A stretch of DNA of 64,000 bases from Geosiphon pyriformis. Taxonomy: Eukaryota > Glomeromycota > Glomeromycetes > Archaeosporales > Geosiphonaceae. The stretch spans positions 378,604 to 442,603 of the forward strand of contig JAAOMT010000295.1 of the NCBI GenBank assembly GCA_016748015.1, read 5' to 3'. Within the stretch, counting starts at the first letter, position 1. Every line of letters begins with the position of its first letter. Under the pieces are notes generated by a model. The model saw only the letters and a program-made list of their open reading frames with translations, searched no databases and was not told the DNA's origin. A program made the translations under genes and the position numbers. Below are positions 1,449-61,715 of this stretch, piece by piece.

Positions 1449-3066
1449 TGAGAAGGAAAATTGGGAAATACACTACCAGCCAAAATTGAACTATCAAATC
1501 TTGCTGTTAGACTTAGAACTGAAGCAGAAAGTCTTACCAACATGTTTTCCAATTTTTTTACCTTAGGAAAAGCAGAAAAATCCAAAATTACAGCAGTCTT
1601 ACCACTTGTGGCCTTACCCAAGCCCTTTCCCATCACTATATTACCCACCTGATCCTGTAATGGAGGGGTCACCAGCAGCTGACATCCAGGGCTAGACTGG
1701 GAAACTGCCAACATGAATAAGTCTAATCTCTTAGCCAACTCACCAATTTGTCCCACAAGGCTGGTAAGACTGCTCTCCAAAACAGCAAACCTTTTTTCAA
1801 TATCACTCATATCAGGAAGAGTAGGCTTTATCTCCAAAGAGAAGCCAGAATTGACTGAAACATTTCACATAGAGAGAGGAAAAAAGAAAGACCGACCAGC
1901 AATCTTTGTCCAAAAAACCCCACCAAAAGCAACAGAACAAGCAATCAGAGCTGAATACTTGACATAGATGATTGCCAACCTGCTTTTATCCATGTCTGAG
2001 AGAGATTTGTGAAAAGGTTTCCCAAAGGAAAGATTTTCACCTATAGCACAGCCCAAAGATGTATGTTCTATTTTTCCATACTTAACACATTTAGAAAAAC
2101 CCAAGTGAGACCAACGCAGATTCACATCTCTCAAAACTGGAGTAGTTCTTATGACAGCATTCAAGAAATTGGCTGATTCAAAACAAACAACAGCACATCT
2201 GGCCCGAGCATATATAACAGGATAACAATTGATTGCACATGTTTTTTCACTTACAAAACCAATATAATTCCAGATGTTATGAGCAGTTATTTCTATTGGT
2301 AGAGTATAGAGCAGTGTCCTATGTTGATCTCTCATGCCCCATGATTTTTTGTCTTGATCAGCTCTGACCACACACATAGTATCTTTTCCAATCAAGATAG
2401 ACTAACAAGTTGCAACTAAATCAGTCTGTTTACTCTTACTAAATTCAACTACAGCTTTCTGCCACAAACCTACCAACTGTATTTTGATCGACACCATCAC
2501 ACCAAATTCAGATAGTGCAGCATGCACAGCTTCTGTTGATGTTCCAACTGGAATTTTCTTTAATATCACAGCCCAATCTGAATGTTCAGATGATTTTTTG
2601 AGATCAGTGTTCACTAAGATCTTCATCTTTTCAGTTTTTTTGGAAGCCTGCACTAAACTTGATTTAGAAGTGAATGTTGCTCTGATAATTCCAGCAAATT
2701 TTGAGGGGGTAGAGGCCCCTCCAAAACCATTAATTTTTGAAAATAACTTTCTGATTATCACAAGCTTTTCTTGAGTAGATTTCCCAACAACATTGTTCAA
2801 ATTGATGTTTAAAGCATAAGATTTCTTAACAAAAACATTGACCAAGTTCTTCAAAAGGGGAGAAAGGACCACAAATTTGTCTAACAGTATGTTATCATTA
2901 TTATCATTCAAGAAGTTAATTTTCCCTAGTGGTTTTTTCAGCACTTTCTTGATAAGAATTTTTGAACTTTTAAGCATTTGTTCCAAGTTTTTTCCAGTGA
3001 AAGCTCTACCATCTCCATAATCAAAACTGATTTCTTTAACCAAACATTTCTTTTTCATGTTCACAC
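1445..3066 (-). pseudogene. LINE copy 1 ORF1 (RRM-like, CCHC knuckle, coiled coil), main part
   Basis: One reading frame broken by point stops near 2402 (TAG) and 1865. From N to C it holds a basic spacer, a conserved block ending 'SKINGFGGASTPSKF', an RRM-like fold ('DWAVILKKIPVGT' to 'LWQKAVVEF'), a second RRM-like region (about 2100-2395), a degraded zinc knuckle where one Cys is Tyr ('CVKYGKIEHTSLGC'), and a C-terminal heptad-like segment ('LESSLTSLVGQIGELAKRL'). The product would be the nucleic-acid chaperone of the LINE particle. The N-terminal codons are at 13218-13384, past the inserted gypsy element. It ends in the ATGA overlap with ORF2. Confidence 0.85.
3063..3066. repeat. Target-site duplication ACAC, left copy
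   Basis: ACAC at 3063-3066 directly precedes the TGTTAC start of the 5' LTR. The same four bases follow the GTAACA end of the 3' LTR at 13214-13221, specifically 13218-13221. Deleting the element plus one ACAC rejoins LINE ORF1 in frame, which supports both the duplication and its 4-bp length. Confidence 0.85.
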
Positions 3067-3935
3067 TGTTACTCATGAAATTATATTAGCATAATTATTA
3101 GCCAATCAGAAGTAAGCATAGTAAATATGAAATTCCAGGATTCTTCTCAGGAATTGCAGAATTCCAGGAATTTCAGGATTCTCAACAAAGAATTGCAGAA
3201 TTCCAGAATTCCAGGATTCCTCTCAAAGGAATCACAGGATTCCAGGAATTCCAGGATTCCTGTCATAAAGAATTGAGGAATTGAGGAATCTCAATTATGT
3301 ATATATAGCAGTAGTATTAGAAACAGAAAAGACAGAATCGATACCACAGAATTCTTAGCCAAGAAACTAATCATCAAATAAATAATCATTCCATATTTCA
3401 ATTCACTCTCCACTATCAACACTTCATGTTGATAGTAATTGATACTTAACCATGCTGAAACAATAGCTCTTGATCACAGCTATTGATGAGATACTAATAG
3501 ACCAAATTGCCTTGGCTTATTTTCTTTACTTTCCTTACTTTTATTTTTTATTTATTTCATTTTCTTCCATTTTTGATTTTGTTGTTGTATACTAATTGAT
3601 TAAAAGATTAAGCACTGAGTTATTGACGTCAAGAATAGCCTGGTAAAAAACCCAGAAATAAGGGTAGGATTTTATATATATATTATCGAATAGCTTACCA
3701 GAAGGGCACGACTGCCAGACTAAATCCGGCCACCATGCTGAGAAAGAAATTGGGAAAACTCTTGGAAGAATACATCTACTATTAACACTATTTGAATCTC
3801 TGTTCATTATACAAAGGACTCAACCAAACCTTCAGATACTAAATCTTCAGATCAATAGCAATTGTAATTAGCTTTGAACACCAAGTTATGGATTTGTTAT
3901 TTGATTTGACAGCAGAAATAATCACTTGTAACATT
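3067..3935 (+). repeat. 5' LTR of gypsy family A copy 1
   Basis: Begins TGTTACTCAT and ends CTTGTAACA, giving inverted termini TGTTAC/GTAACA. It matches 12350-13217 along its whole length with scattered substitutions and small indels. One is a 9-bp gap soon after the start, where the 3' LTR has extra bases. The visible divergence means the insertion is not recent. Confidence 0.93.
3131..3308 (+). promoter_or_regulatory. LTR U3 array of GAATTCC palindromes plus TATA box
   Basis: Palindromic GGAATTCC/GAATTCCAG units recur at close, irregular spacing from about 3131 to 3270, followed by TATGTATATATAG at 3296-3308. The 3' LTR has the same layout (array about 12421-12540, TATA 12579-12591). Degraded traces remain in the minus-strand family A LTRs near 23870-23935 and 55680-55760. 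The position just upstream of a TATA box suggests activator binding sites for the element promoter; this is an inference. One or more TTCnnGAA arrangements resemble half of a heat-shock element. Confidence 0.55.
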
Positions 3936-3953
3936 TGGTGCTCCCTGTGAGAT
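3936..3953 (+). other. Probable primer-binding site of gypsy family A
   Basis: TTTGGTGCTCCCTGTGAG follows the 5' LTR end directly. A TGG-starting tract at this place is typical of tRNA primer binding in LTR elements. I could not match it to a particular tRNA. Confidence 0.5.
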
Positions 3954-3995
3954 ATAATTCTACAGAGAACCAGCACCAACAACACCAAACCAAAA

Positions 3996-6900
3996 GTGGC
4001 AGAATCAGAAACTATAGGAGCAAACCATTTAGGATTCGTAAAATTTTTATTTCAACACTATTGTCAATACTTGGGATTAAACCACAATCATATATCTGCC
4101 AAATCAGCCTTCAATTTCTATGTCAACAAAAAGATTTCTTCTTTATTAAAAACACCAGTGAATACTGAATCAGCAAGAGAAACTTTCTATAAGGAATTAA
4201 TTCAAAACACCAACCTACTAACAAATCATAATTTCGCATCCATTATCATTGAGATCAACAAAGAAATTGAACATTACACTCAACAAAGATATCTAATTAC
4301 ATACGCTAGTAAAGGCAAGGGAAAATTACAAACACCAGCAGTAATACCCAGAAAAATACAGCCATCTGCTTGGAAGAAACAGAGTTGAATCCCCAAGCAA
4401 CCCATCCTATCACTATATACCTGGAAGTGCCATCAACATATCATCAACAGATGTGTTCCCATCAACTGCGACATCAGCATTTGGACGATTCCCATTCCAA
4501 AATAGACAAAGGAAAACAGAATTGTTAGGACCATACAGCAAATACTTTGAGAGATTTAATTCGCGATCATCAACCCCATTAGGACTTCGATTACCACTGT
4601 CTTCACCAGATTTCAGAATTTCTGATTTGTGGAAAGCAGCGGAATCAGAAAAGAAGGAAGAAAAATCAGAGGATCAAGAATTCACTTACCAGTACCTGAT
4701 CACTGAAAATCCGGAAGTTGAAATCCTGAACATTCAAACTTAGCAACAGTTAAAAAATCCGGAAATCAAAACTCTGAATATTCGAACACCGCCAAATCAA
4801 AGAAATCAAAACCCCGAATTAATTAATCAGCAAAACTTACCTCCAGTAATTATCATTGATCAACCGCCAATTAATCCCGTAGCCAAACCCATACAACAGC
4901 CACTTCAACTACCACTCCAACAGCCAGGACAACAACAACTGCTTCAACAGTCACTACAACCACCTAACTTAGATCCAATGGCCTATGCACCAATCGCAAA
5001 ACTCGACAACTTTACTGGTGAAGAGGGTGATGCTCAAATATGGCTGAACAATATAGAAAAAGCCATTGCAGCCAATGGATGGAATGACACTTGAGCAATG
5101 TAAGCCATTCCCTACTTTTTCAAGAATACCGCCAATTCATGGTATCAGAGCTTGGTTAATAAACCACAAGATTTCAATGCCTTCAAAGCGGAATTTCTAA
5201 GATACTTCAGCAACAATAACAGCATCAATCACCTAGTTAATGCATTCACCACCATAAAACAAGGAGAAACTGAAGCAGTCACCACTTACCTGGGACACTT
5301 CCATCGAAACCTATGCCAAATTCAAACAATTGACACCAATTATTTCACAGCACCACAGATACTCAATCAGTTTATCCATGGCTTGTGCAGCAGCATATTG
5401 CAACATGTATGACCATTGCATCCAGGTACTCTTCAAGACGCAGTTATACACGCCAGAGATTTTGAATCCATTGAGTCAGAGGCTAACCATGCCCAAGCCA
5501 TTAACCTAGTAATGAACGGATTATCTGAATTGGATTCTAAATTGGAGAAGTTCAGTGAATCAATTAATAAGAGATTGGAAGGATACTTAGCTGACAATCA
5601 CGCCATTTATCAGCCTCCACAATGATGCAATAATCAAGAAAATTCTAATTGTGGCCAAAATCAACCACATTCATCTTCATCGACCAATCAATAATGGCAA
5701 CAGGAAATGCATATCTGCCACTATTGTGGTAAACAAGATCATATCCAAATTGACTGTCGCCAGTGTCTAAATAACCAAAGATTGGGAAATCAATATCAAA
5801 ACTCCGATCGCTGGTTCCAAACTCCGAATCATTATCCAAATCAGAATCAAGACCAATATCAAAATAATTACCTGCCCATAACACAGCAACCAATCTATCA
5901 ACCATCAGTATATCAACCTCCGATTCATCAGCTGCAGCCACAAGTAATATATCAACCGCAGCCACAAATTATCTATCAACCCCAACCAATTCAAACACCA
6001 ACCCAGAACTCAGCTCAAATGACATCAGGCAACCCTCGATTCAGAGTCACTCAAAACTGGAGATCGGCGATAGTTGTTCACCAACCGATCCCCAGTTCGC
6101 TAAACCCACTATCAGGATCACACACCCGGAATTTGGATATCAGTCGTGTCCAAAACCCAAATTCTCAACATTATTTAAGTCTCCTAGTTACCCCAGAAAA
6201 CACCACATCTAACAACACAGAATTTAATCAGCACGTACCTACCAACACCATTCCACCAGCAATCATCTCTAGCGACAAATCCCTAGCAGCCATCTTTTCT
6301 TTCAAACTCAAAGAAAATGCACCAATACTGTTATTCAGTAGAGCCACTCTCGAAAAGAAACCCATAACAGCAATGTACACAGATGTCAGAGTTGATGGTC
6401 ACCTCATCAAACTCATCCTAGATAGTAGATCAGCTGGCAGCATAATTACTAAACAACTCATGGAACAATTAGGTCACCGAGTTGATCGAACTGCCAGTGC
6501 CAGAATCATCACAGCCAATGGAGTGACCAAAACTCCCATCGGCGAAATCGACGATTTCCCTTTTGAAGTCAATGGCATAGTGACTTCCATTAAAGTTCTA
6601 GTAATGGAAGCCACTCAATACCAAACTCTCGTTGGTAATAACTGGCTATCTAAAGTCAATGCAACGTTAGACTGAAACATCCAGGAACTCCAGCTAATGT
6701 ATCAGGGCCAACACATATGTGTTCCGGCCACATGTGGCCACTTCAAAACTCCTCTAAGAGAGAAACTATTGATCGAGCTGGAGAAGAAGAAAGAAAAGCC
6801 TACCTGGGAAGCCTACCAAGTATCATGGGCTGACAAAAAACACAATGAGCTGCCACCAATACTCTCTTGGGACAACAACAACAAGGGAAAAGGGAAACAA

Positions 6901-7071: not shown

Positions 7072-7727
7072 TCTACCTATCGTTGACCCAAGCTATATGC
7101 GTCGATTGTGGCAAGAAATTGTCGTCAATGGGCGCATGCTATGGGAACGATGAGGAATATTCAATGGCAACTAAGTTCTATTGCCGCCCATGCGTCTTTG
7201 AATGCTTTGGAAGACCAAAATAAGTAGGGAAATGGGACAATCAGTCATGCTTAGCTTGTGGAAAGACTCTCTTGGATGAAGGAATGTGGCATAACATTCC
7301 TGGACGAGGAGGAACATGCGACATATCGTGTCAATACACGATTCTAATAAGTGACTGGGTAAAGAAAAGAACCCCAATAGAAGCAGCCTGGAGAAGAGCC
7401 GTACAACAACTGGACAGTTGCCCACATGACGACGATGAAATTTGGCAAATGACACTTGCAAAAATCAAAGGGGTGACACCAGAAGAGATAAAAACGATTA
7501 AAAACAACCTCTCAGAACCTTTAGAGCTTGACTGGAATGCAGAACCCATCATAAACCTCCTGGATCTGGAACAATTCCACGAACATTACCAAGAATTAGC
7601 ACCCACAAGGAAAGAACAAGAACAACAATTAGAACAGTTGAACGCTCGACTATGTCAATACTGCCTAATTCCCTATGACTTCTAGTATTGTAATGAATGT
7701 GACCTTATTTACAATCCACCACCACAC
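7068..7727 (+). pseudogene. Gypsy family A ORF B, N-terminal cysteine-rich module
   Basis: ORF B opens with ATG 7068, which overlaps the ORF A stop. The first 220 codons contain several CxxC pairs: CVDC, CRPC, CLAC, CDISC, CQYC and CNEC, roughly between 7095 and 7715. They are separated by a helical, acidic middle part. This looks like two or more structural zinc sites, perhaps ribbon-like. I do not recognise the family. It lies between protease and dUTPase, where gypsy elements normally have no extra domain. Stops at about 7221 (TAA) and 7683 (TAG) interrupt it. An unusual nucleic-acid-binding domain is possible; its function is unknown. Confidence 0.6.
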
Positions 7728-8567
7728 ATGATCTACACGATCCCGGAAAAGGAAGAACCAATTAGCAGCTGCGCATCAGAATTAGGATTGCCAATTGATC
7801 ACGATTCAAACTTTGACAATGATGGTGACAACAATGATTCAAACTCCGTTCAAAATGGCAATAACAACAACAATGATTCCAACTCAGATACAAACTCCAA
7901 GGTAAACTATGAACAATACATTGCACTACCAGATCTCTCCAAGGAACAAGAGTTGAAATGGTATAGTGACAATGGGGAAGGTATTATGCCAGAATGTGCG
8001 CATGATACTGATGCAAGGTTTAATTTAAGATATCTAGGAAAAGATGCCATCAAATTGGAACCACATTCACACACCTGCATTGATCTGAAAGTAGCACTAG
8101 AAATTCTAGCAACAACCATGGTTCAATTAGCATCTAGAAGTAGTTTAGCGAAAAGAGGGATTAATATAAGAGGAGGAATAATTGATGCGGGATATGTAGA
8201 AAATATCATCGCTATGCTACAAAATGACTCAGAAAAGACCTATGTAATAGAGCCTAATGAAAAGATAGCACAGACAATATTCCTGCCTCTGGTTAGAATA
8301 GCTCAGTTAGTATCAGTGGGAAAGAGGGAGGAATTAGGAATCATGGCAAGAGAAATACAGAGATTTGGATCCACAGGTAGAATAGATGTACCAGTTAACA
8401 TGGCAGAAGAAGAAATTGTTGGCCAAGGAGAAATTATCTCAACTGGTCAAGCTATTTCTATTCCACCATATAGCCAGTACATGTTAGCAATAGAAAAAAA
8501 GAAAAAGGAGCAAAAACAGATGTTTGAAGCGAAGCAACCCTTTGTGAATTGGAAGAGATTGGGTTGA
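7728..8567 (+). pseudogene. Gypsy family A dUTPase domain, degraded
   Basis: After an Asn/Asp-rich linker (residues about 28-60) the five ordered motifs of trimeric dUTPases can be read: motif 1 'DTDARFNL' (about residue 93), motif 2 'RSSLAKRGI' (137), motif 3 'GGIIDAGYVENI' (149), motif 4 'NEKIAQTIF' (177) and motif 5 'REIQRFGSTG' (208). dUTPase hydrolyses dUTP to dUMP and so limits uracil incorporation into new cDNA. Compared with the family, Gly-to-Arg and Asp-to-Asn in motif 1 and Gly-to-Glu/Arg in motifs 3 and 5 each fit one G-to-A change, so this copy is probably inactive. The frame is lost near 8500-8535, in or next to an A-rich run. The reverse complement of this region is still visible in the decayed copy at about 59950-60300. 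Confidence 0.88.
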
Positions 8568-8929
8568 TCAATCTCTACATACCAGCCAAAGGCTATAGCA
8601 GCATAAAAATTCCCATCTACAACAATACTGGCAATGTCATCAGCATACCAGAAGGAACAACCATTGGATATTTAACCACAGAAATAGAAAACCAACCACC
8701 AAACCCCATTCCAGACTTTCCACAACTTTGTGAATATGTTAACATCACATCACAAACAATCTATGGACAAGACAAATATTATTTGCTCCAACCAGAACAA
8801 TTGGAACAAATAAACATGGGAAACTTAGATCCACTCCAATATATGCAGCTCAAGATGTTACTCAACAAGTTCAATGACATCTTTGCCAGCGAAAATGAGT
8901 TTGGCCGAACTGACATCATCCAGCATTAG
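8535..8929 (+). pseudogene. Gypsy family A linker between dUTPase and reverse transcriptase
   Basis: About 130 codons in the frame used by RT. The first part is beta-rich ('LYIPAKGYSSIKIPIYNN', 'IPEGTTIGYLTTEI'). It resembles the spacer that often precedes RT in gypsy polyproteins, with a 'L..LL.KFNDIFA' segment near the end. A TAG at 8927 replaces what is probably a Gln codon just before the RT start. Confidence 0.7.
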
Positions 8930-10189
8930 ATCAAGACTGGAGATGCAATGCCAATTAAACAAAGAGCATACAGAGTGCCGCCAGCCAGCCACGAGATTAT
9001 TCGTCAAGAGATAAACAGAATGCTTGACAACAGGCTAATTCAACCATCAATGAGTCTATGGTCATCACCAGTGGTACTCGTCCATAAGAAAAATAGAAAA
9101 ATCCGGTTTTGTATAGACTACAGGAAACTCAATAGTGTAACTCGTGGAGACAGTTATCCAACTCCATAAATACAGAAATTATTCGATGCTTTTGGTAGGA
9201 ACAAATGGTTCTCCACATTAGATTTGAACAGTGGTTACTGACAAGTAGCCATGAATCCAGCTGACAAAGAGAAGACGGCATTTACTACTAGAGAAGGGAA
9301 TTTTGAATTTGAAGTAATGCCATTCGGCTTAACCAATGCCCCAGCAACTTTCCAACAGCTAATGGAAATTGTTTATACAGGCTTATTGTGGAAATCAGTA
9401 TACTTGGATGACACCAATGTATTCTCAAAGATGTTTGATGATCATCTTCATCATCTTCAACAAGTGTTCAAAAGACTAAGAAGAGCAGGACTGAAGTTAA
9501 ATGCGACAAAGTGCTTCTTTGACAAGACAGAACTCAAATTCTTGGGACACATAATCAGCAAAGACGGCATCAAAATGGATCCAGAGAAAATAGAGATAGT
9601 AAAAAACTTTCCAGTACCGACCAATATAATAGAACTGAAATCATTCTTGAGATTTGCCAGCTACTATTGTCATTTTATCAAGAACTTTTCCAAGATAGCG
9701 CAGCCACTCAATCAACTACAAAACAAAAATGCGAAATATGAATGGACAGAAAGTCAACAAGAAGCTTTTGATATTCTGAGGAAAAAGCTCATCCAAGCTT
9801 CAGTACTAATCTATCCAGATTACAGCAAACCATTCATCATTACCACTAATGCATCCGGCCAAGCATTGGGAGCAGTATTATCTCAGAGAGGACCAGATGG
9901 CAGAGAACATCCAGTAGCATATGCTAGCAAAGATTTAACACCAGCCGAAAAGAACTATGGAACACCGGAACAAGAACACTTAGCAATATACTGGGCTGTC
10001 ATGAAATGGAAAGAATACTTGAGCCAGAAGTTTGAAGTATACACAGATCACAAGGGATTGACATCACTCCAAAAACAAGAATTTGGAGATGGAAGACAGT
10101 CAAGATGGAAAATGGCACTCACACCATACAATTATACTATATATTACAAAAAGGAAAAAGACAATGGAAATGCTAATGGTTTATTGTGA
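8930..10189 (+). pseudogene. Gypsy family A reverse transcriptase and RNase H
   Basis: Classic Ty3/gypsy RT blocks are present: 'QEINRMLDNRLIQPS', 'SPVVLVHKKNRKIRFCIDYR', 'STLDLNSGY', 'MPFGLTNAPATFQ' and the catalytic 'YLDD' at about 9404. They are followed by the thumb and an RNase H with 'YTDHKGL' and 'EQEHLAI'. The first RNase H aspartate is lost: TNASG (near 9844) stands where TDASG is expected, one G-to-A change. Stops at 9167 (Gln position) and 9239 (Trp of 'GYWQVA') sit on normally conserved residues. The frame changes near 10150-10190 before the integrase part. Confidence 0.93.
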
Positions 10190-11520
10190 ATAAGACAAAT
10201 CTAAAAACATTTCAACCCAAAGATATAATAAAACCAGAACAATACCAACAGAAAATACAACAAAAGATGAACATACAAAAATATCAACAATTACAACATT
10301 ATCTAAATACTCAACAGTTCAAGGAGAATTTATCTCATATGGAACGAAGGAGTATCAAACAACAATCAAAATATTTTATCACTCACCAAAATATACTTTA
10401 TTGGAAAAATAGAAGAGATCCAGATCAACCAACCAGAGTAATTACAGAGCCAGAAAAAGAGACAATATTATTTAACATGCACTCAAATCCAATAGCAGGA
10501 CATTTTCACAAAGAAACAACCATAAAAAGAACTAGAAAAAGATACTATTGGCCATCAATGTACCCAGACATCATTCAATATGTTCAAAATTGTGACGCTT
10601 GTCAGCGAAGAGGAGGAACGAGACCCAGTGAACCATTAAGACCAATCAAAGTGGGATAACCATTTGACCATATGGGAATTGATTTAGTTGAACCATTAAC
10701 AATTACCAGCAGAGGAAACAGATACATAGCAGTAGCTATGGACTATCTCACTAAATGGCCAGAGACAAAAGCAATTCAAAGAGCAGATGCAGAATTCATT
10801 GCCGAATTTGTTCATCAGAAGTTGATTTGTCGACATGGATGTCCAAAAGAATTATTGTCAGACCAAGGAACTCATTTTGTGAACAGAACATTAACTGAAT
10901 TGAGCCAAAAATTTGGAATCAAAAGACCATTATTATTACTATACCATCCACAAACCAACGGATTGGTAGAAAGATTTAACAGAACGTTGTGTAAAGCAAT
11001 AGCCAAGCTCAGCCAAGAAAACCAGAACGATTGAGATTTGTTCATACCATCAGTACTATTTGCTTATTGGACAACGAAACAGGATACTACACAAGCAACA
11101 CCATTTAAATTAGTATATGGGAGAATAGCAACGTTACCAGTAGAGAGAGAAATTAATACATATCCAGCTGAACCAATAACAAAGGAAAATTTTCAAAAAA
11201 CATTGCTAAGAAGAACATATGACTTAATGGAAACATTGGAAAACAAACGAAGAAGAGCAGCTGATAATATCCAAAAGTCACAAAAAACACAGAAAGAAAG
11301 ACACAATAGTCAACTATCAGACAAACCAGTTGAATTCAAGATCGGAAACAAAGTATTACTATATTGTACCAAAGTGGAAAAACAATGGAGTGGAAAATTT
11401 AACCCCAAATAGGACGGACCATTTCACATAGAAGAAATTCTAGAAAATGGAACTTACAAATTAAGATTGAATAACAAAATTTTAACCAAAGCAGCACATG
11501 GAAATTGACTAAAACCATAT
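10186..11520 (+). pseudogene. Gypsy family A integrase
   Basis: The HHCC zinc-binding domain (H...H near 10480-10505, CDAC near 10594-10605) is followed by the DDE core: Asp in 'MGIDLVEPL' (about 10678), Asp in 'LLSDQGTHF' (about 10861) and Glu in 'NGLVERFNRTL' (about 10970). The C-terminal part has 'KVLLY' and 'DGPFHIEEIL' segments like other gypsy integrases. No chromodomain is visible. Point stops lie at 10657, 11032, 11410 and 11506; Gln, Trp, Trp and Arg are the likely ancestral residues. The catalytic triad remains legible. Confidence 0.92.
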
Positions 11521-12336
11521 CACAACATCACAATACCATCTACCAGTAATATTCCACAATTAGGAGTACAGAGAATACTAGTCCAACCAGATGAGATTCC
11601 ACGAGATCTGAAACCAATCATTATTATCAACAACAACACGTTAAATTGATCCATCAAAAGAATATATAAAGACATGGTAGATGCGACAGGAAATATCAGA
11701 AAAATGGAAATTACAAACAACATTTACTCACTAACACAACAACTTTTTCAATTAATCCAACACCAGGAAATGGAGATTACAATCAATTAACAAACTATTC
11801 AATATCAAGATACTAGAAAGACATTGCAACTCAGAACACAGAAAAAAACTGAAAATACAGTGGACAAAATTATTGCGAAAGTAAAATTAGCAATAATCAA
11901 AGAATTGACAAAAGAGTTACTATATCAAAAGTTGACTAAAGAAACTTGGAATTGGTGGATACAACAATTTCCATGAAACTATTGTTATTTTTACTTGGGA
12001 CAACACGTAAATATTCAGAATCTATATACGAATAAAACAAAGCGATTATTCGACAAAAGAATACTACAACAATTAGAACATTTTTTGGGAAAGAACAACT
12101 TATCCACACAAGCCCGAGCCATATACCAAATACACACAGCATTTCAGGATAAACCAGAAATATTGCTCAACAGAAAAATGGATATGGTGACTAGTAATCA
12201 ATTGGGAAAAATCACCAATACTCAATTTGAAGAATTACAGACCCAAATAACACAAGTAATTCTCGAAAACAAAATCCAGGAAATACTTCAAGAGGGGGAA
12301 TTACATAAGTTAGATTTCGACAGAGCTCAATATTAA
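11521..12336 (+). pseudogene. Gypsy family A C-terminal extension of unknown function
   Basis: After integrase the same frame continues for about 270 codons to TAA 12334-12336, only 13 bp before the 3' LTR. It is interrupted by three stops at transition-accessible codons. The sequence is polar, Gln/Lys-rich and mostly helical in appearance. Recognisable blocks are 'PIIIINNNT', 'YCYFYLGQHVNIQNLY' and 'LGKITNTQFEELQTQITQVI'. Family B carries a counterpart in the same place (about 62690-63600 minus), with 'PIIIIEQQ', 'YRYFHIGKTLYK' and 'IGKLTELKFQQFSDQIISII'. There are no membrane segments, signal peptide or cysteine pairs that would suggest an envelope protein. I do not recognise the family. 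Confidence 0.7.
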
Positions 12337-12349: not shown

Positions 12350-13217
12350 TGTTACTCATAGAAATATAGGAATTATATTAGCATAATTATTAGCCAATCA
12401 GAAGTAAGCATAGTAAATGTGGAATTCCAGAATTCCTCTCAGAAATTGCAGGATTCCAGGAATTTCAGGATTCTCAACGAGAAATTGCAGAATTCCAGAA
12501 TTCCAGAATTCCTCTCAAAGGAATCGCAGAATTCCAGGATTTCTGTCATAAAGAATCGAGGAATTGAGGAATCTCAATTATGTATATATAGCAGTAGTGT
12601 TAGAAACAGAAAAGACAGAATCGATACCACATAATCCTTAGCCAAGAAACTAATCATCAAATAAATAATCATTCCATATTTCAATTCACTCTCCACTATC
12701 AACACTTCATGTTGATAATAATTAATACTTAACCATACTAGAACAATAGCTCTTGATCATGACTATTGATAAGATACTAACGGACCAAATTGCCTTGACT
12801 TATTTTCTTTACTTTCCTTACTTTTATTTTTTATTTATTTTATTTTCTTCTGTTTTTGATTTTGTTATTGTATACTAATTGATTAAAAGATTAAGCGCTG
12901 AATTATTGATGTCAAGGATAGCCTGGTAAAAGACCCAGAAATAAGAGTAGGATTTTATATATATATTATCGGATAGCTTACCAAAAGGGCATGACTGTCA
13001 GACTAAATCCGGCCACCATGTTGAGAAAGAAATTGGGAAAACTCTTGGAAGGATACATCTACTATTAATACCATTTGAATCTCTGTCCATTATACAAAGG
13101 ACTCAACCAAAACCTTCAGATACTAAATCTTCAGATCAATAGCAACTGCAATTAGCTTTAAGCACCAAGTTATGAGTTTGTTATTTGATTTGACAGCAGA
13201 AATAATCACCTGTAACA
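12350..13217 (+). repeat. 3' LTR of gypsy family A copy 1
   Basis: Matches 3067-3935 from TGTTACTCAT to CTGTAACA, with scattered differences. It contains the same GAATTCC array, TATA box and AATAAA-type motif near 12657. It is followed directly by ACAC, the second copy of the target duplication. Confidence 0.93.
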
Positions 13218-13555
13218 ACACTATTAGACTTAGTGGTATCACTGGTTTTAAAACTCCAAGAACGACCATTTAACACCTTAGCAGCAGTGAATTTCCTATT
13301 ACCAATATTATTCTCCAAAGCACCACCTTTCCTCTTCTTTCTAGACTCAACAGACTTAATACCAATATCAGAACCAGGCTCCATAATAAATCTGTTTAAA
13401 ATAACAATACTAAGACCAATAGTGGCTTTGTAATCAAGCAAAAACAGTTTGGATTTATCATATTGAATAATAAAAAAACTTCTTTCAAAAAATATTTTGG
13501 CTTTTTTTTGGAAATTTGGGATGAACAAAAGAAAGAAGTTTTTGTTATTTTTTAA
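13218..13555 (-). mobile_element. 5' end of LINE copy 1 (ORF1 start and 5' UTR hairpin)
   Basis: The ORF1 start codon is ATG at 13384-13382 (protein start 'MEPGSDIGIKSVESRKK'). The frame runs to 13218, where the gypsy element interrupts it after 'TTKSNS'; it resumes at 3066 downward. The 5' UTR holds a perfect 12-bp inverted repeat at 13474-13485 and 13532-13543, also found at the 5' ends of LINE copies 2 and 4. The exact outer end, near 13555, is inferred from those copies. Confidence 0.8.
13474..13543 (-). promoter_or_regulatory. Conserved LINE 5' UTR stem-loop, copy 1
   Basis: Arms AAAAACTTCTTT (13474-13485) and AAAGAAGTTTTT (13532-13543) pair perfectly around a loop of about 46 nt. The same arms occur at 24637-24648/24690-24701 and 44808-44819/44862-44873, while the loops differ. 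The RNA would start with a strong hairpin. Its role is unknown; promoter, translation control or 5'-end processing are possible. Confidence 0.65.
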
Positions 13556-15120
13556 AATTAATATATAAAACATTAAATATTATAATATTTTATTTATATA
13601 ATATACTTATAATATTATTTATTATTTATTATAATATAACTTATATATTAATAATTATTTAAATAATATATTAATAAATATATATATAAAACAAATATTA
13701 ATTTTATATATTAATATAAATATTATAATATTAATACATATTTAAATTTAAATTTTTAAGTTTTATATATTATTTTATAATTTTTATATTAAATTAAATT
13801 TATTTTTTTGGTTTTTATTTTTTAAAATTCTTTTATAAAATATAAATTGATTATTATTTACAAAATTAAGACTAAAAATTTACAATAAAAACAGTTTATA
13901 TAATTTTAATATATAATTAATTATTTTTATTTTATTTAAATAATTTTTAAATGTTTGTTTAAATATATTTATATATATATTTACTTATTGCTTTTTTATA
14001 AAATTTTATTTTAATATTTTGTATTTTTTATATATTATATAATTTGTTAAAATTAATTATAATTAATATTTATTTATACCATAAATATTTAAAAATAAAC
14101 TTTGTATTTATTTTTAAATTAATTAAAGTTTTTTAAATAAACCAAGAATTAAATTAAAATATACTTAATTTAAGCTTTTTAAAAAAACTAAATTAAATTT
14201 TTATATTTATAAAATTTATATTAACAATTACAAAAAAATTAATTAAGTTTATTAAAAAAGCAATTTTTTAATTACAGATTTTATTACATAAAACAAATTT
14301 ATAACTTAAATTTTAATTATTTTTAGTTTGAATTTATAAATTTTATTAACTGTTTTAAAATTAAAAATAATAAAAAAAGTTATAATATTAATATAAACAT
14401 TAAACCAAGCTTAATAAAAACTTTAAAAAACATATTTAATAAATTAAAAATAGTTTACAATTAATAATTATATAATATAAACTTTAATAATTTTAATAAT
14501 AATTATATTTAAAAATTTTTACTGAAATTTTTGTTAATATTTAAATTTAACAAGCTTAAGTTTAAAAACAATATTTAAGAAAACTTAAAAACCAAATTCC
14601 ATATAAAAATGGCTAAAATTATTTTCTAAGTACTATTAAAATCAGTAGTGTTATTTTTGTAATAAAAAATAGGTTTACTTTTGTAATTATTAATGTTTTA
14701 TATTTGAAATTATGTTATTTTATACTATATAGTTGGTATTTAATATATAATTTTAATTTGACTATAATTTTTACAAAAGTTTCTTTACTATTAAACAGTT
14801 TTTTAAGTATTTGATATTTATAAAATTAAGTTTTGATTTATTTCATAAAAAAAGCTAATTTTAGTTTATTTAAAAAACTTAATCTTCTTTGAATTAAATA
14901 TAATAAATAATTCCATTGTTATTAAGTCTATTAGTTGTTTTCAGAAAATAATATACAATCAAATTCTTGTTTTTTAGTACTGGAAAATAAAAAAAGCTGG
15001 TTCCAAATTATAAATGTTATAAATTTAACTTTATATTTTGTAAAAAAATAAGTCATGAATTTTATTTTATCCAAAATTGTAATAATCAAATACGCCATAT
15101 AAAAATAAATGATCAAACAA
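13556..15120. other. Extremely A+T-rich decayed DNA, no gene seen
   Basis: Almost only A and T, with stops in every frame and no legible motif. It probably consists of very old retroelement remains like the recognisable ones elsewhere in the window, but I could not align any part of it. Confidence 0.6.
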
Positions 15121-24701: not shown

Positions 24702-24786
24702 GTTTTTTTTTTGTTAGTATTATATCAACATTTCTTTAACTAATAACTCTTTTGTTGTGGATTTGAAGGCTGCTTTTAGTGGCAGT

Positions 24787-26622
24787 ATGTTAAAGAAAAA
24801 GGTGTCTAAAGGTGCTTTTCATGGTCCTGCTGGTGGTTCTTTTACTCAAAAGAAGAAAGTTATTCTTGGGAATATTAAACATTCTGGCGATGAGCAGAAC
24901 ATCTTTCTGAAGTCTGGTTTTGGTAATAGTGCTTTTTCTGATGTGGAAAGCTTATCTGGTAATGAAAATAACGTTAATATATCTGGTGGTGGTGATGGCT
25001 CTCTTCTGGGTTCAGCTGTTAATATTCCAAAGACAAATAGATTAAGTACTAACATGAATTTTGGCTTCTTTCTCAGTTCCCCCAACTTTGCCATAGATAA
25101 AGAAGTGAAATCTCTTCCATCTCCAATAAAGAAAGCCTCTTTTGATAGCAAATGGGTCAATCCTATTATCATCAAAATTCAAGTGGAGGTGTCTGTCAAA
25201 AAATCTTTTGTCTTAGATATCTATCTTTCAGCTGTTGAAGGCAAATTGGTAATGGCGAAAACTCAATTAATCAGGAAAATTTTTTCAAAAATCAATGGTT
25301 TTGGGGGGGCCACTACTCTCTCAAAATTTGAAGGAATTATCTAATTGACATTTACTTCTGAGGAGAGCATGAGAAAAGCTGCGTTATTGGCCAAAAAAGA
25401 AGGGATCATCATAAACAACGATGTGAGGAAACAAGGGCTTCGTTCAGATTGGGCTGTGGTGATCAAAAAAATTCTCATGAACACACTTAAGGATATAATC
25501 GTCACCGCAGTAGCCAAATTTGGTGAAATTAAATCAATCAAAATTCAACTAATCAGTTTATGGCAAAAGGCTGTAGTGGAATTCGCCAATTCTGATCAAG
25601 CTGCGCAGTTGGCATTAAAATAGTTGTTCTTTATTGGAAAAGACTCAGTTTGTGTGACTATGGCTGTGAAAAATCGTGATACATGGACATTTAGGGATCA
25701 CTTCAGAGCATTTCTGTTTACTTTGTTAGTAGGAACAACTGTACATAATCTTGACACTCTTTTGAATAGGGCAGATGGTAGAACTTGCATTATTAATCAT
25801 TTTTTAGACACTGGTAATAGATTTCACTGTGCTGTGGTCGGCTTTAAATCTGAGAGAGATTTGGATTCCGCCTTTCATACTGAGTCTATTTTTGGTGGTA
25901 TGCAACTCTCTTGGGCTAGATTAAATTTGGTTTAGTGTGAGAGGTGTGGGCCTTTTAGACATTTGGTACTTGAATGTGATGCTCCTGCTAATAATATGCC
26001 ATTATCATCTTTGGCTAAATCTTCTAAAGGTTTTGTTTCTAAGAAAAGACGTCTCCAGCTGGCTAAATTATATCAAAAAAAGAATGTTCTGATCTCTCGC
26101 CTTGTTGCTTTTGGTGGAAAATCCTGGGGCCAAGTAGTCTTAGTGGCAACTTCTCTCTCTCATGGCTTGTCTGTTGGTTCTGGCTTAAGTTTTCTCCTTT
26201 CTTCACATCATGGCTTTGGTGATGTCTCTTTTTTGAATGACCGCTTGGCCTCTTTAGAATGCTTATTAGAGCTTCTTTCTGACCGGGTGTCTACCATCAT
26301 TAGGCATCTTGCCGGTGTTGAACTGGTGCCTCTGGTGTTCTCATCTCTTACTTCTCTTTTCGATGCTTCTGCATCTTCGGCTTTAAGTTTAGACTCAGAT
26401 ATGGTTTTGGATGGTGCTTTGATGTTGTCTGCTCCTCATCTCTCTTCTGCTGCCATTGTTGGTGAGTCTACTTTTGGTTCGAGTAGCTCCAAGGTTCTTA
26501 CTGACAAGGTAAGTGGTTTGGAATCTAAGTTAGCATCCTTGGAAGCTTCTATTGGTTCAGTATTGGCTCATTTGGATAATATGTGCTTTAGTTCAGGTGC
26601 TTCTTTGCTTTCTTCATCTTAA
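24787..26622 (+). pseudogene. LINE copy 2 ORF1 (two RRM-like domains and CCHC knuckle)
   Basis: One frame with stops at 25342 (TAA), 25621 (TAG) and 25933 (TAG). The two TAGs stand where LINE copy 4 has Trp. I chose ATG 24787 because it lines up with the ORF1 start of copy 4. Domains: a basic Ser/Gly-rich N-terminus, a conserved block ending 'SKINGFGGATTLSKF', an RRM-like fold (about 25440-25620, 'DWAVVIKKILMNT', 'LWQKAVVEF'), a second RRM-like fold (25624-25935), then an intact knuckle 'CERCGPFRHLVLEC' (CX2CX4HX4C, 25936-25977). A Ser/Leu-rich tail includes a coiled-coil-like 'LESKLASLEASI'. The product would coat LINE RNA. The stop overlaps the ORF2 start as TAATG (26620-26624). Confidence 0.88.
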
Positions 26623-47675: not shown

Positions 47676-47687
47676 TCTATATATAAA

Positions 47688-55816: not shown

Positions 55817-58416
55817 TTATTTTCTTCTTTTAATATTAAATTTTATTGAGATTTTCTAAATTTTTCTCTTAAATTAGCTCTAAAACTTTTTTCTTAAAAA
55901 TTGCTTTGTAATTTTGGTCTGCAATTCTTTAAATTGAGCATTAATTAAATTTTCCAGTTGATTAATAGTTATTGTACTTATTTCTAAGTGTAACAGTATT
56001 TTTGGCTGGTCCTAAAATCTTATTTGTAATTAGTAAATAATTTTTATATATATAGATAAATTGGTTTTTCTCATAATTTGTTCAATTTATTATACTATAG
56101 TTAGATTAAACATCTTTTTGGTCTTATTTATATATAAGTTTTGAATATTTAATTTCTGTTTTAATTAATAGTAACAAAAGTTCTTAAGAATTTGTTGTGT
56201 CTATTGATTTCAATTTTTTAAAACAAATTCTTTATTTGGTATTAATATTTTTGGAGTTTCCAATGTTTTTTCTACTTTTTCCATTATTTTGTCTATTGAA
56301 TTTTCAAAAGTATAATATCTGAAATATTGTTCTTTACTTTGAGATCTTTGAGTTACTTTTTTGTTTTTATATTGTATTGTTTGTTTGTTAATAGTAACTT
56401 CGAAACTTAATTTCTAATGTTGAATAAGTTGTAAAAGCTGTTGTATAAGTAAGTGAATGTTGTTAATAATTTCTATTTTTATTATTGTTTTTATTATGTG
56501 TATTGGTTCTTTATATACTGTTTTAATCAATCAATTTAATGTATTTGTTTTAATAATTATAATTGGTTTCAGATTTTATGAAATCTTATTTGATTTGACT
56601 AGTATTTATTGTACTCTCAATTGTAGAATATTATTGATAAATAATAATACTATATTGTGATATAGTTTTAGTTAATTATTATGTACTACTTTGGTTAAGA
56701 TTTTATTGTTTTATCTTAACTTATATGTTCTATTTTCCAAAATTTTTTCAATATAAAATGAATTATTCCATTTGGAATCAAATTTTCTATTTCATTGTTA
56801 GTATAATATAAGAGTACTTTGTTTTCAATTCTAAATTTAGCTAATTTATCTATTAACTGATTATTATGTCATTCTTTTTGTTTTTTTGTAACTTTTATAT
56901 ATTATTAACTGCTTTTTGCTTTTTGTTTTTTAGAGTTTCCATTAAGTTATATGTTTTTCTTAGCAATGTTTTTTGCAAATTGTCTTTTGTTATTGGTTTA
57001 GCTAAATATGTATTGATTTCTATCTTAACTGGTAATGTTACTGTTCTATTATAGATTAGTTTAAATAGTATTGTTTATGTAATATTTTGCTTTATTGTTT
57101 GATAAGCAAATAATACTAATAATATAAATAAATCTCATTTGTCCTGGTTTTTTTGGCTGATCTTGACTATTGCTTTATACAATATTTTGTTGAATTTTTC
57201 AACTAAACTATTGGTCTGTGAATAATATGATAATAATAATAGTCTTTTAATTTTAAATCTCTGACTTAATTTTGTTAATGTTTTGTTTACAAAGTAGGTT
57301 TCTTGGTCTGATAAAATTTTTTTTGAATATCTATGTTAACAAATCAAATCTTGGTATATAAATTTGGCTACAAATTCTGTATTTGCTCTTTGAATTATTT
57401 TAGCTTCTGGCCATTTTGTAAGATAGTTTATAACTACTGCTATATATTTGTTGCTTTTATTAATTATTGTCAATTATTTGATTAAGTTAATACTAATTTG
57501 ATTAAATAGTTGTCCTACTTTGATTGATTTTAATGGTTTACTGAGTTTTGTTTCTTTTTTTTTTTAACAAGCATTACAACTTTGAATATATTGAATAATA
57601 TTTGGATATATTAATAACTAATAATATTTTTTCCTAATTTTTTCTATAATTGCTTCTTTATAAAAATGTTCTGTAGTTAAATCTGAATATATGTTAAACA
57701 GTATTGTTTTTTTTCTGGTTTTGTAATTACTTTAAGTGGTTGGTTTAAATTTTTTCTGTTTTTTTAATATATTATATTTTGGTAAGTGATAAAATATTTT
57801 GATTGTTGTTTTATGTTATTTTGTTTTTTTTAAGATGATTTCTCCTTGAACTGTTGAATATCAATATAATATTGAAGTTGTATTTTTGTGTGTTTATTTT
57901 TTGTTATATTTTTGGATTGAAATGCTTTTAAATTTGTCTTATTCATAACAATCTATCAGCATTTCAATTTTTTTTTCTCTTTTTATAATGTTCTGTATAA
58001 TTAAACAGTAAAAGTTATATTTTTTATTTGACATGACAATTGTCTCTATATTCTTGCTTTTGAATTGATGTCAATTCTTTGTAATTAGTATATACCTCAA
58101 ACTTCTGACTCAAGTATTTTTTCTATTTTATAACAATCTAATAAATAGCTAAATGTTCTAATGTTAGAGTTTCATAATTCTTTTCAGCTAAACTTAAATT
58201 TCAGCTAACATATATCATTGAATATTCTTATTTATCTGCTTTTTTTTGTGACAATATAGCTCTTAATGCTTGGCTTAATGTGTTAATAGTAATAATAAAT
58301 GATTTGTTATAATCTGAATAAATTAATACTTAAGTTTAAATAAGCTTTTTTTTTAGTATATTGAAAGCTTTTTGTTGGTTTTCAGTCTATTTTTATTTAA
58401 TGTTTTTAGCTTGGAG

Positions 58417-58743
58417 CTAATAAAGTGGTTGAGCCAGTTTGAAAAAGTTTTGAATAAAATGGTAATAGTATCCAACAAATTCCAAGAATGCTCTTAGCTC
58501 TGTTAAGTTTATTGGTACTAAAAAATTCTTAATTATTTTGATTTTGTTTAAATCTGTTTTAATGTTATCTTTGCTTATAACATGTCCCAAAAACTTGAAC
58601 TCAGTTTTTACAAAGAAATACTTGGTAGCATTCAACTTTAATCCTGCTTTTTTTAGCCTTTCAAATACTTGTTGGAGATAATAGAAGTAATCATCAAATG
58701 TTTTGGAAAATATGTTGGTATTATCTAAATAGACTATTATCAA
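58417..58743 (-). pseudogene. Reverse transcriptase fragment of gypsy family A copy 3
   Basis: A 108-codon open piece that aligns residue by residue with 9400-9720 of copy 1: 'YLDNTNIFSKTFDDY', 'GLKLNATKYFF', 'FKFLGHVISKD', 'LEFVGYYYHFIQNF'. The RT active site reads YLDN instead of YLDD, one G-to-A change in the second aspartate. Confidence 0.9.
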
Positions 58744-59949
58744 TTTCCATAATAGTCTAATATAAACAATTTCTATTAATTATTGAAAAGTAACTGGAGT
58801 ATTAATTAAGCCAAAAAACATAATATTGAATTCAAAGTTTTTTTCTCTGGTAATAAACACTGTCTTTTTATTGTCAGCTGAATTCATGGCTACTTGCTAG
58901 TAATTATTGTCTAAGTTCAATGTAGAAAACCATTTTTTTTCTCCAAAAACATTAAATAGTTCTTGAATTTGTGGAGTTAGATAGTTGTTTTTATAAATAA
59001 TACTATTAAGTTTTCTGTAATTCACACAAAAACGGATTTTTCCATTTTTTTTCTAAACAAGTACTACTAATAATAATTATAGACTTATTAATAGTTAAAT
59101 TAACTCTTTGTCTAATATTTAATTGATTTTTTAACAAATAATTTTATAATTGGCAAATAGTACTTAATATATTTTTTGTTTTATTAACATTATATTTTTG
59201 GTTTTAATCTGGTGTTAAATAATATTAGTTCTGCCAAATTTGTTTTCACTTGTAAAAATGTCAGTAAAATTGTTAAGTAACAACTTAAATTGCATATATT
59301 GAAATGAGTCTAAGTTTTCCAAGTTTATTTTTTCTAATTGTTCTGGTTATAACAAATAATATTTTTTTTATTTGTAAATTGTTTGTAATATAATGTTTAC
59401 ATATTTACAAAATTGTAAAAAATCTGAAATGGTAGTTGGTATTTGATTCTTAACTTTGGTACTTAAGTATCTAATAGTAGTTCTGCTTGATATTTTAATT
59501 GGATCTGTATATTAAGATTTTGATGTGTTTATAATTCTTGGCTAATATGTAAAAATTAGTAATAGCAATCTCTCTTAATTTACAAATAGTAAATTTTACT
59601 TCAAAAATCTAAAGTTAATCTCTTACTTTCCTTTCTATGACTAATATATACTAGTTATATAGTAGGATAAAAATTGATTGATTAGTGAAAATAATTTTTC
59701 TCTGATTAATTATTTTCTTTTCCACCATATTGACAAATATTTTTATTCTACTTATAAATCCAAATCTATTTATTTTTTTTGCTGTAATTTCTAACTTTTT
59801 TCTTATTTTTACTAGAAATAAAAATATTGTTTGTGCTATTTTTTTATTTAGTTTAATAATATATGTTTTTTTTTAATTTGTTTTGTAGTATTGCAATGAT
59901 ATTTTCTACATATTTTACATCAATTATTTCTTTTTTAATATTGATTTTT

Positions 59950-60300
59950 TTTTACTAAACTAAATCTAGACATTAATTAAACTATTATTGTTGCTGAAAT
60001 TTCTAGTGCTATTTTTAAATCTATATTGGTGCACAAATAAGATTCCAATCTAATGGCAGTTTTTTCTAAGTATCTGATATTAAATTTTGTATTAGTATTA
60101 TGCATTCATTCTAACATAATACTCTCATTATTATTGTCAAACTATTTAAGTTTCTGCTCTTTTGAAAAATCTAAAAATGTGATATATTATTTGAAGTTTT
60201 TATCAGAGTTTGAATTGTTATTATTGTTATTGCTATTGTAAACAGAGTTAGAACCATTGTTGTCATTATTATTAGAGTCTAAATTAAGATTAAATTTCAA
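59950..60300 (-). pseudogene. dUTPase N-terminal relic of gypsy family A copy 3
   Basis: The antisense translation of this stretch matches the antisense of the dUTPase region in copy 1 (about 7907-8119) over some 45 residues. So dUTPase was present in the common ancestor of both copies. A long ATT-like run at about 60219-60240 corresponds to the Asn-rich linker. No sense-strand frame is open. Confidence 0.7.
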
Positions 60301-60365
60301 TTTTAATTCCAATTCCAAAACACAACTGTTAATTGGTTTTTTTTTTAGAGATTAAATAATTATAT

Positions 60366-60369
60366 ACAG
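60366..60369. repeat. Target duplication ACAG of the solo family B LTR, left copy
   Basis: ACAG at 60366-60369 is repeated at 61337-61340, directly outside the solo LTR. It marks the empty site in the family A internal sequence. Confidence 0.75.
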
Positions 60370-61336
60370 TATTACTAGAGGTTTTTGGTCTCTTTTTTTG
60401 AATGTTATTAATGTCTGTTTGTTGTGAATTTATAACTAAAGGAAGTAGTTAAACCTCTGATAACTGAATTTATCTTCAAATTATCTCTTATAATTTGAAC
60501 TGCTGGGCTTATAAGTGAAATAACCAATTCCATACCAGTTATTTTATGTAGTTATATTCTAGTAAATATTAACTTTTTCTTAGGAATTGCTTGTCTAGAA
60601 GCTCACTAAAAATATGTAGTTACTTTGCTGTAAAAATCAATTCTTTTACAGGAATCTTGTTTGTAAGCTACCCTAATAATTATAATAAGAAAAGAGAAAA
60701 AAATAAAAAATATATAAAAAAAATAGAATTGTGTCTAAAAAAACGTTTTCTATTCAGGCCTGGAGTCATTAACAGATTACTGAAATTGGTAGCTAATTAA
60801 TTTCAAAATGTTAGTTGTGTTGAAAAAATTCCAAGTATAATAATTAAGGATTTGGTTTTTGAATATTTAATTTTTATTTGATTTTGTAAGGATGTAAAAA
60901 ATGATTGGTTTTAATTAAAATATTTAAAAATAAGATAAGATACTATAATAAAATACATTTTTTTAAAGAAAAAAGCTTTTTTTATACAACTTGTTGTAGT
61001 ATTAGTTTTTAAATTTGCATTTTTTTCTTTGTTACAATTTTGGTAAACTAAAGATACATTTTGGCAAACTACAAGTTATTTCTACAAACTATTAATTATT
61101 TCGGCCAATTTCTGCTAATTTCGGCGAATTTTTGAATATTAAATGGTTCAAGGTATTGTGTAGTTTGATCATCTTAATTTTTATGGTACAAATCGAATTA
61201 TTAATTGAATAATAATATTTAATAATTTGATTAAATAATAAGTGATAATTGAAATAATAATAATATATACTAATTAATAATAAGAATTATGAGAGTAATT
61301 TTATGCTAATTAATAGCTAAAATTCTACTGATAACA
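60370..61336 (-). repeat. Solo LTR of gypsy family B
   Basis: A 967-bp copy of the LTR at 61716-62686, ending in ATAACA (from GTAACA) and starting TATTAC (from TGTTAC). It is flanked by a 4-bp ACAG duplication and sits inside family A internal sequence that continues in register on both sides. Recombination between two LTRs of an inserted element explains it. Confidence 0.85.
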
Positions 61337-61715
61337 ACAGTAGTGGATTGTAAATGAGGTCACAATCATTACAATATTTGAAGTCACTAAAAATTAAACA
61401 ATGTTTATAAAATCTAGTATTTAATTGTTTTAAATGCTGCTCTTGTTTTTCTTAACTAGGTGCTAAATCTTGGTAGTATTCATAAAATTGTTTTAAATTA
61501 TTCAGAATATTAATAAATACATCTAAATTGGAAATAAAAATAGTTTCAACAGGTTCTAATAAGTATTTTTAATTGCTAATATTTTGCTAGGTAAAATGTT
61601 TTCAACTTTGACATTTGCTATTCTCCAGATCTTATTTTTGTTATATAGATAACCATTTAAGCATAAAAGCACTCAGTTTTATATAATGTTAAAAAACATT
61701 CCTTGGCTTATCCAG
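61337..61715 (-). mobile_element. Continuation of gypsy family A copy 3 (Cys-rich/dUTPase junction)
   Basis: The first 200 bp align clearly with the reverse complement of about 7500-7720 in copy 1 ('GGATTGTAAATGAGGTCACA' there reads almost the same). The rest is weaker but shows similar spacing down to 'AACATTCCTTGGCTTATCCAG'. It ends where a family B element is inserted. Confidence 0.75.

Follow-up and report, generated by a model that had tools for sequence, protein, structure and literature searches.

Why would a fungal retrotransposon carry a dUTPase of its own, and does the domain still matter to the elements that encode it? The question is raised by a stretch of 64,000 nucleotides of the Geosiphon pyriformis genome (hereafter the window; GenBank assembly GCA_016748015.1, contig JAAOMT010000295.1, positions 378,604 to 442,603 of the forward strand), which contains a Ty3/gypsy element with a dUTPase domain between its aspartic protease (PR) and its reverse transcriptase (RT). 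An initial annotation of this DNA, made from the letters and their open reading frames (ORFs), had proposed this placement, downstream of a Cys-rich module, and had read the five dUTPase motifs in order. The order of Pfam matches and the examination of 20 further loci support both points, and on sequence evidence it appears quite probable that the element itself encodes the dUTPase within a fused Gag-Pol, and that the enzyme hydrolyses dUTP in the active members of the lineage.

The dUTPase domain of the window element

A profile search, which the annotation had suggested, matched PF00692 at 49.6 bits against a curated cut-off of 22 (E=4.3e-13; residues 100-215 of the ORF at 7686-8567), and motifs 1-5 follow one another in order within 7995-8381, all inside that single ORF. 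Motifs 1, 3 and 5 are deviant in this copy, yet the Asp and Tyr of motif 3 are present; in families B and C (see below) the motifs of most copies are canonical. Pfam matches and a comparison of the long terminal repeats (LTRs) established a Ty3/gypsy order around the domain—LTRs, gag capsid, aspartic protease, dUTPase, RT, RNase H and integrase (Table 1). Structure prediction with AlphaFold2 on a cleaner alignment returned an all-beta dUTPase fold with a predicted local distance difference test score (pLDDT) of 84 and a core spanning residues 12-127, the arm bearing motif 5 not being confidently placed; an earlier alignment had given a pLDDT of 45 and no dUTPase fold, a result that we put down to the ragged alignment of gene-model fragments.

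Abundance and organization of the lineage

We searched the Geosiphon genome (124.7 Mb in 406 contigs) with two kinds of query. The PF00692 profile yielded 3181 candidates, 150 of which were scored, all 150 above the cut-off; the dUTPase of the window yielded 4386 candidates, 150 of which were scored, with identities of 77-100%. Since these two lists of 150 places have no place in common, the genome contains at least 300 dUTPase places. When the dUTPase of P0001 (a protein encoded at locus L011) served as the query, 17 Geosiphon pyriformis proteins were recovered, 35-92% identical over the aligned part. Twenty places were then examined over ~10 kb each, with partial masking at 17, and gag, PR, the Cys-rich module and dUTPase were found in this order at every one. 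RT was seen after dUTPase at 13 of these loci; the corresponding stretch is masked in L010, L013, L021 and L026, and RT is missing in L018, L019 and L020. Family B (like L012) accounts for fourteen of the loci and family C (like L027) for six; the element in the window represents family A, extra copies of which lie beside the targeted copy in L013 and L018. The annotation had argued, pointing to a very old second copy in the window with the same domain, that dUTPase was part of the lineage and not a one-off capture; the second copy (Table 1) and the genome-wide occurrence bear this out.

PR, dUTPase and RT of the window copy lie in three different frames with stops in between, and this copy is dead—a state that would suit an explanation by chance similarity or by an artefact of the frames. 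The significant profile match, the 300 places with the domain and the predicted dUTPase fold have already refuted that explanation, which we reject as having next to no probability. Less decayed copies share one frame: P0001 runs from gag to dUTPase and into the linker (1433 amino acids, aa), and P0139, from L012, covers protease to RNase H in a single frame (1307 aa). The separate dUTPase frame ahead of RT described in the annotation is thus real in the window copy, where the frames differ, but it is a product of decay.

The two LTRs of the window element differ by 54 transitions and 1 transversion over 858 sites (Kimura two-parameter distance 0.0685), which speaks against a young copy and shows decay almost wholly by transitions. 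Among the 44 transitions with unchanged neighbours, hits fell on 6 of 11 CpG, 16 of 56 CpC, 12 of 95 CpA and 10 of 91 CpT sites, a distribution by site that suggests decay driven by deamination.

The three family B loci lacking RT share a deletion form—L018 (4768-3929, minus strand), L019 (4853-5692) and L020 (5181-4318, minus strand). In each, 847 bases running from dUTPase into the linker are followed by one common joint, with a 9-base overlap (839-847), to sequence that lies ~3.5 kb further on in the full-length L016 (4369). The deletion removes RT, RNase H and integrase but leaves gag, PR, the Cys-rich module and dUTPase in place. Because the same joint occurs in three places, the form was copied after the loss and has multiplied as a non-autonomous form, its RT and integrase presumably being supplied by full-length relatives. 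It accounts for 3 of the 14 family B loci, which were chosen by dUTPase score.

Active-site conservation and selection

Motif conservation was tallied over 67 distinct dUTPase places (3 of family A, 27 of B and 37 of C), with the incomplete L010 and the second copy of the window set aside. The motif 3 Asp is present in 2/3 family A, 26/27 family B and 31/37 family C copies, the motif 3 Tyr in all 67, and motif 4 reads KIAQ in all 64 copies of families B and C. As the sampled places favour conserved copies, selection is better judged from substitutions than from such tallies. When two family C subclades of 15 and 22 copies are compared with each other, the mean Nei-Gojobori ratio of nonsynonymous to synonymous divergence (dN/dS) is 0.13, whereas it is 0.27 and 0.46 within them. 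A McDonald-Kreitman-like (MK-like) count on the same subclades, with near-fixed differences defined at an 80% threshold, gave 12 nonsynonymous (N) and 29 synonymous (S) near-fixed against N187/S137 polymorphic changes (P=0.0007). These patterns indicate that dUTPase has been under purifying selection throughout the life of the lineage.

Several observations weigh against this picture of a maintained enzyme. A stop lies inside the dUTPase domain at 14 of the 67 sampled places, and these places were drawn from the two ends of the dUTPase-score ranking, so that conserved copies are over-represented in the motif tallies; the 76-bit floor of the PF00692 list, moreover, excluded family A. The MK-like result varies with the threshold (P=1e-5 at 70%, 0.0007 at 80%, and 0.14 at both 90% and 100%, where the counts are small). 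The same count between families B and C leans the opposite way (near-fixed N65/S31 against polymorphic N225/S164, P=0.08), which we put down to synonymous saturation (dS 1.6). Both selection tests concern dUTPase only, without RT as a control. Finally, the host already has a dUTPase (L076, described below), so the need for a second one is not established.

The dUTPase could also have been retained for something other than catalysis, such as folding, a regulatory contact or an assembly of Pol driven by trimers, with enzyme activity incidental. The domain sits in the middle of a polyprotein, beside a Cys-rich module of no assigned role, the host has its own enzyme, and the deletion form, which multiplied without RT and integrase, still has dUTPase along with gag and PR; all of this would fit such a task. 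Conservation of the active-site residues in most B and C copies, and in metagenomic elements with the domain between PR and RT, argues for an enzyme, and we judge a non-enzymatic role unlikely.

Under the favoured reading of an active dUTPase, the enzyme would be made within the fused polyprotein (gag, PR, Cys-rich module, dUTPase, RT and RNase H, in this order) and presumably be released by the element's own protease. In active members the domain, which would form a trimer and be present in the particles, would most likely convert dUTP to dUMP near the RNA undergoing reverse transcription. Uracil would thereby be kept out of the new cDNA, a benefit of the kind proposed for retroviral dUTPases.

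A cellular dUTPase in the host and the origin of the element dUTPase

A yeast DUT1 query recovered only places at 32-37% identity among the 150 scored of 2929 candidates, and the apparent lack of a host dUTPase was overturned once L076 was found. The motif 3 pattern of cellular dUTPases gave two hits in the genome: L077, an element copy, and L076 (contig C262), which in several exon-like pieces encodes a standard eukaryotic dUTPase. Geosiphon, as judged from this gene, has an ordinary cellular dUTPase of its own.

Could the element have captured this cellular enzyme recently? The fold family and the motifs are common to host and element dUTPases. The host gene is, however, ordinary and reads as exon-like pieces, and in a tree of 25 dUTPases the sequences of the PR-RT type (12 from Geosiphon and five from metagenomic elements), joined by a long lentiviral branch, stand apart from the host, yeast and human enzymes and from 3lqw and 3c2t (split support 89/97). 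In all 17 PR-RT-type sequences a single residue is missing between motifs 2 and 3 and the stretch that follows motif 4 is longer, and in most of them a Gly precedes the motif 3 Tyr and motif 4 contains a Lys; none of these features occurs in the host enzyme. A fresh host capture is accordingly very improbable, and we reject it in favour of a separate, element-type dUTPase.

The 17 sequences on their own form a group with support of 76/89, which is not strong. The phylogeny proposed in the annotation, with host and retroviral dUTPases, set the element enzymes apart from the host; on the retroviral side, the lentiviral 1dut falls with the element sequences on a very long branch and with odd composition, and we claim no kinship for it. 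The dUTPases found after RNase H in two further metagenomic elements (P0231 and P0249, see below) group with the cellular ones. An element profile scored the five PR-RT metagenomic dUTPases at 202-226 bits and the two after-RNase H sequences at 77-83, and a cellular profile scored them at 97-108 and 197-199 bits, respectively; both profiles were built from the scored sequences themselves, and these values are a description, not a test.

Pool-cleaning enzymes among RT relatives

With the RT of P0139 as query, 7007 proteins were found, of which the best 120 were examined. Among these, seven have PF00692 and three a NUDIX domain (PF00293). The dUTPase lies upstream of RT in P0188, P0199, P0200, P0208 and P0238, with a Pfam-recognized PR ahead of it in P0199, P0200 and P0208. 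Two metagenomic Ty3/gypsy proteins, P0231 and P0249, carry a cellular-type dUTPase directly after RNase H, and three others, P0198, P0226 and P0258, a NUDIX hydrolase before PR. The latter three have what we take to be an intact NUDIX box, preceded in P0258 by what we take to be a zinc knuckle.

The RT tree comprised 132 rows—119 of the best 120 relatives (the short P0166 was omitted) together with 13 from Geosiphon. These 13 fall into a single group (support 96) adjoined by P0231 and P0249 (91), and the other dUTPase carriers fall elsewhere, among rows without PF00692; a tree of 53 chosen rows gave the same picture, with P0231 and P0249 beside Geosiphon (95/92). By this placement, the elements closest to those of Geosiphon in RT carry the other kind of dUTPase, in the other place. 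Within the same larger RT clade lie the Rhizophagus clarus proteins P0220, P0246 and P0256, all without PF00692, and the three NUDIX carriers are placed near two R. clarus proteins in the RT trees. Two members of the NUDIX clade lack the domain, probably through truncation (P0247 starts inside the would-be NUDIX region and P0255 after it), and metagenomic fragments without dUTPase may likewise be truncated. The best RT tree splits the carriers of a PR-RT dUTPase; because a forced single clade was not rejected (approximately unbiased test, p-AU 0.127), these dUTPases may go back to a single gain followed by losses, or may have been exchanged among elements.

A tentative reading, to which we give slightly less than even chances, is that this Ty3/gypsy clade of Geosiphon, Rhizophagus clarus and metagenomic elements has repeatedly acquired enzymes for cleaning the nucleotide pool, and has done so at three sites matching or neighbouring those of retroviral dUTPases. 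These would be NUDIX before PR (P0198, P0226, P0258), element-type dUTPase between PR and RT (Geosiphon and the five metagenomic elements) and cellular-type dUTPase after RNase H (P0231, P0249). If so, reverse transcription in these hosts would be limited time and again by the quality of the nucleotide pool.

The Cys-rich module and the PR-RT distance

Both PR and RT were matched in 74 of the best 120 relatives, three of them in reverse order. Where neither dUTPase nor NUDIX is present (n=63), PR and RT are 122-213 aa apart in 53 proteins and 243-373 aa apart in 10; the gap measures 181-187 aa in the NUDIX carriers (n=3), 299-348 aa in the four measured dUTPase carriers and 665 aa in P0139. 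Most of the extra length in Geosiphon comes from the Cys-rich module of ~200 aa, whose three CxxC-type pairs can be aligned across families A, B and C (8 rows). A profile of the module matched only P0238 among the best 120 relatives, at the last Cys pair (E=1.7e-13). Comparison with Pfam gave no significant match (best E 0.089-0.11, and none in the third protein scanned), nor did comparison with PDB sequences (best E 0.26); the CxxC pairs prompt the guess that the module might bind zinc. In eight relatives with a PR-RT gap of 311-373 aa and no dUTPase, no Pfam domain was found above the cut-off in the gap.

Other features of the window

Table 1. Parts of the Ty3/gypsy element and its older relative, in window coordinates
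Feature	Position	Strand	Remarks
Target duplication ACAC	3063..3066 (left), 13218-13221 (right)		weak evidence at 4 bases alone
5' LTR	3067..3933	+	TGTTAC...GTAACA ends; 793/856 identical to 3' LTR by BLASTN, 10 gaps
gag N-terminal region	3951..4743	+	two overlapping frames; aligns weakly with family B loci, at 25-30% identity
gag capsid domain	5104..5412	+	PF03732, E=4.9e-12
Aspartic protease	6382..6651	+	PF13975, E=1.2e-9; residues 230-319 of ORF 5695-6675
Cys-rich module	7095..7730	+	three CxxC-type motif pairs; stops at 7221-7223 and 7683-7685
dUTPase domain, motifs 1-5	7983..8381	+	
dUTPase-RT linker	8384..8926	+	frame change near 8530-8567; matches in other families
RT and RNase H	8936..10189	+	PF00078 and PF17917 in ORF 9242-10189; 2 stops in aligned 8936-10177
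Integrase	10177..11412	+	H2C2 zinc finger PF17921, core PF00665, C-terminal part
ORF3, 3' of integrase	11977..12336	+	counterparts in 7/20 other loci
3' LTR	12350..13217	+	pairs with 5' LTR by BLASTN
Second, older copy	55904..61562	-	Cys module, dUTPase (60198-59594), RT, integrase, ORF3; 14 stops in aligned RT stretch

Three parts of the window element—the gag N-terminal region, the linker ORF (8528-8929) and ORF3—have no Pfam match, and no chromodomain was matched in the window ORFs scanned, which excluded 11035-11976. Counterparts of ORF3 occur in L011, L016, L017 and L024 (family B) and in L022, L025 and L026 (family C), many of the remaining loci among the 20 being masked or incomplete at its position. 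The element is perhaps nested in a copy of one of the other-type elements described below, to judge from minus-strand ORFs at 2402-3085 and 13181-13579. A direct repeat of 991 bases, 84% identical (60363-61336 and 61709-62686), runs across and beside the second copy. A third relic (34315-31800, minus strand) retains pieces of linker, RT and integrase, and tblastn showed no dUTPase upstream of it.

Large ORFs of another element type lie at 24718-31079 (plus strand) and 44877-39230 (minus strand), with RNase H (PF00075) in 29820-31076 and RT (PF00078, just below the cut-off) in 40136-41731; they are perhaps non-LTR retrotransposons. An open frame of 538 aa at 47676-49292 (plus strand) with an HMG box (PF00505, E=1.5e-17) is likely a host gene, an observation made without a systematic gene search of the window.

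Comparison with known elements and implications

In betaretroviruses dUTPase is found with the protease, and in non-primate lentiviruses it lies between RNase H and integrase. Neither arrangement was seen in the window element or the 20 loci, where dUTPase is downstream of PR and, wherever RT is seen, upstream of it; among the relatives, the dUTPase of P0231 and P0249 follows RNase H, as it does in non-primate lentiviruses. The annotation had regarded the PR-RT position as a different arrangement, and it is in fact already in print. In Postia placenta, PosPlaTy3-5 is described as having dUTPase between PR and RT (PMC2864245), like the Geosiphon elements a fungal Ty3/gypsy element, and the same paper cites earlier dUTPase-bearing elements from Phanerochaete and Tuber. 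Its relevant passages call these elements chromodomain-containing, place them in basidio- and ascomycete hosts, report other Postia families with dUTPase at the start or end of Pol and propose acquisition from different sources; unlike in Geosiphon, a Cys-rich module is not mentioned in those passages, and the likeness is one of description. Rotifer LTR elements Juno, Vesta and TelKA likewise have dUTPase between PR and RT according to passages of PMC5408684—again a likeness by description, in animal hosts, with varied ORF3 genes and, in Juno, an extra zinc knuckle after dUTPase. Closer at hand, the metagenomic P0188, P0199, P0200, P0208 and P0238 resemble Geosiphon in carrying a dUTPase of the same type upstream of RT, with the last Cys pair also found in P0238, and differ in the shorter PR-RT stretch noted above.

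Retroviral dUTPases (beta- and lentiviruses and human endogenous retroviruses), as treated in the relevant passages of PMC4531489, belong to the same enzyme family as those of Geosiphon and have a presumed role in excluding uracil from cDNA. For the NUDIX carriers, a fungal NUDIX subfamily K with retrotransposon-related domains in 9 of 14 members (PMC12210691) can be set beside P0198, P0226 and P0258 by description; its passages on the subfamily name neither the type of element nor the order of domains and draw no link to dUTPase. Parts of two further papers report a dUTPase in a metavirus taken as a proxy for the PNMA ancestor (PMC11011659) and an enrichment of PF00692 together with retroviral domains in Entomophthora muscae (PMC11105155).

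Judging by titles or abstracts, we found no paper on dUTPase-bearing elements in Geosiphon or in arbuscular mycorrhizal (AM) fungi, and the literature searched did not contain the Geosiphon lineage, its Cys-rich module of ~200 residues or the variety of enzymes and places among its RT relatives. The interest seems to reside in the lineage—an old, abundant and selected dUTPase family with a Cys-rich module and a deletion form that keeps the enzyme, within a clade of apparently repeated enzyme uptake. Long-lived hyphae and spores are a feature of Geosiphon and AM fungi, and we conjecture that host dUTPase may be low in them. A single clade by RT whose members carry dUTPases of two kinds at two sites, NUDIX at another or, in many cases, no such enzyme would be a natural experiment on when such an enzyme pays off. 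That retroelements outside vertebrates keep a dUTPase under selection suggests that reverse transcription in general is troubled by uracil in cDNA, and not only in lentiviruses in non-dividing cells.
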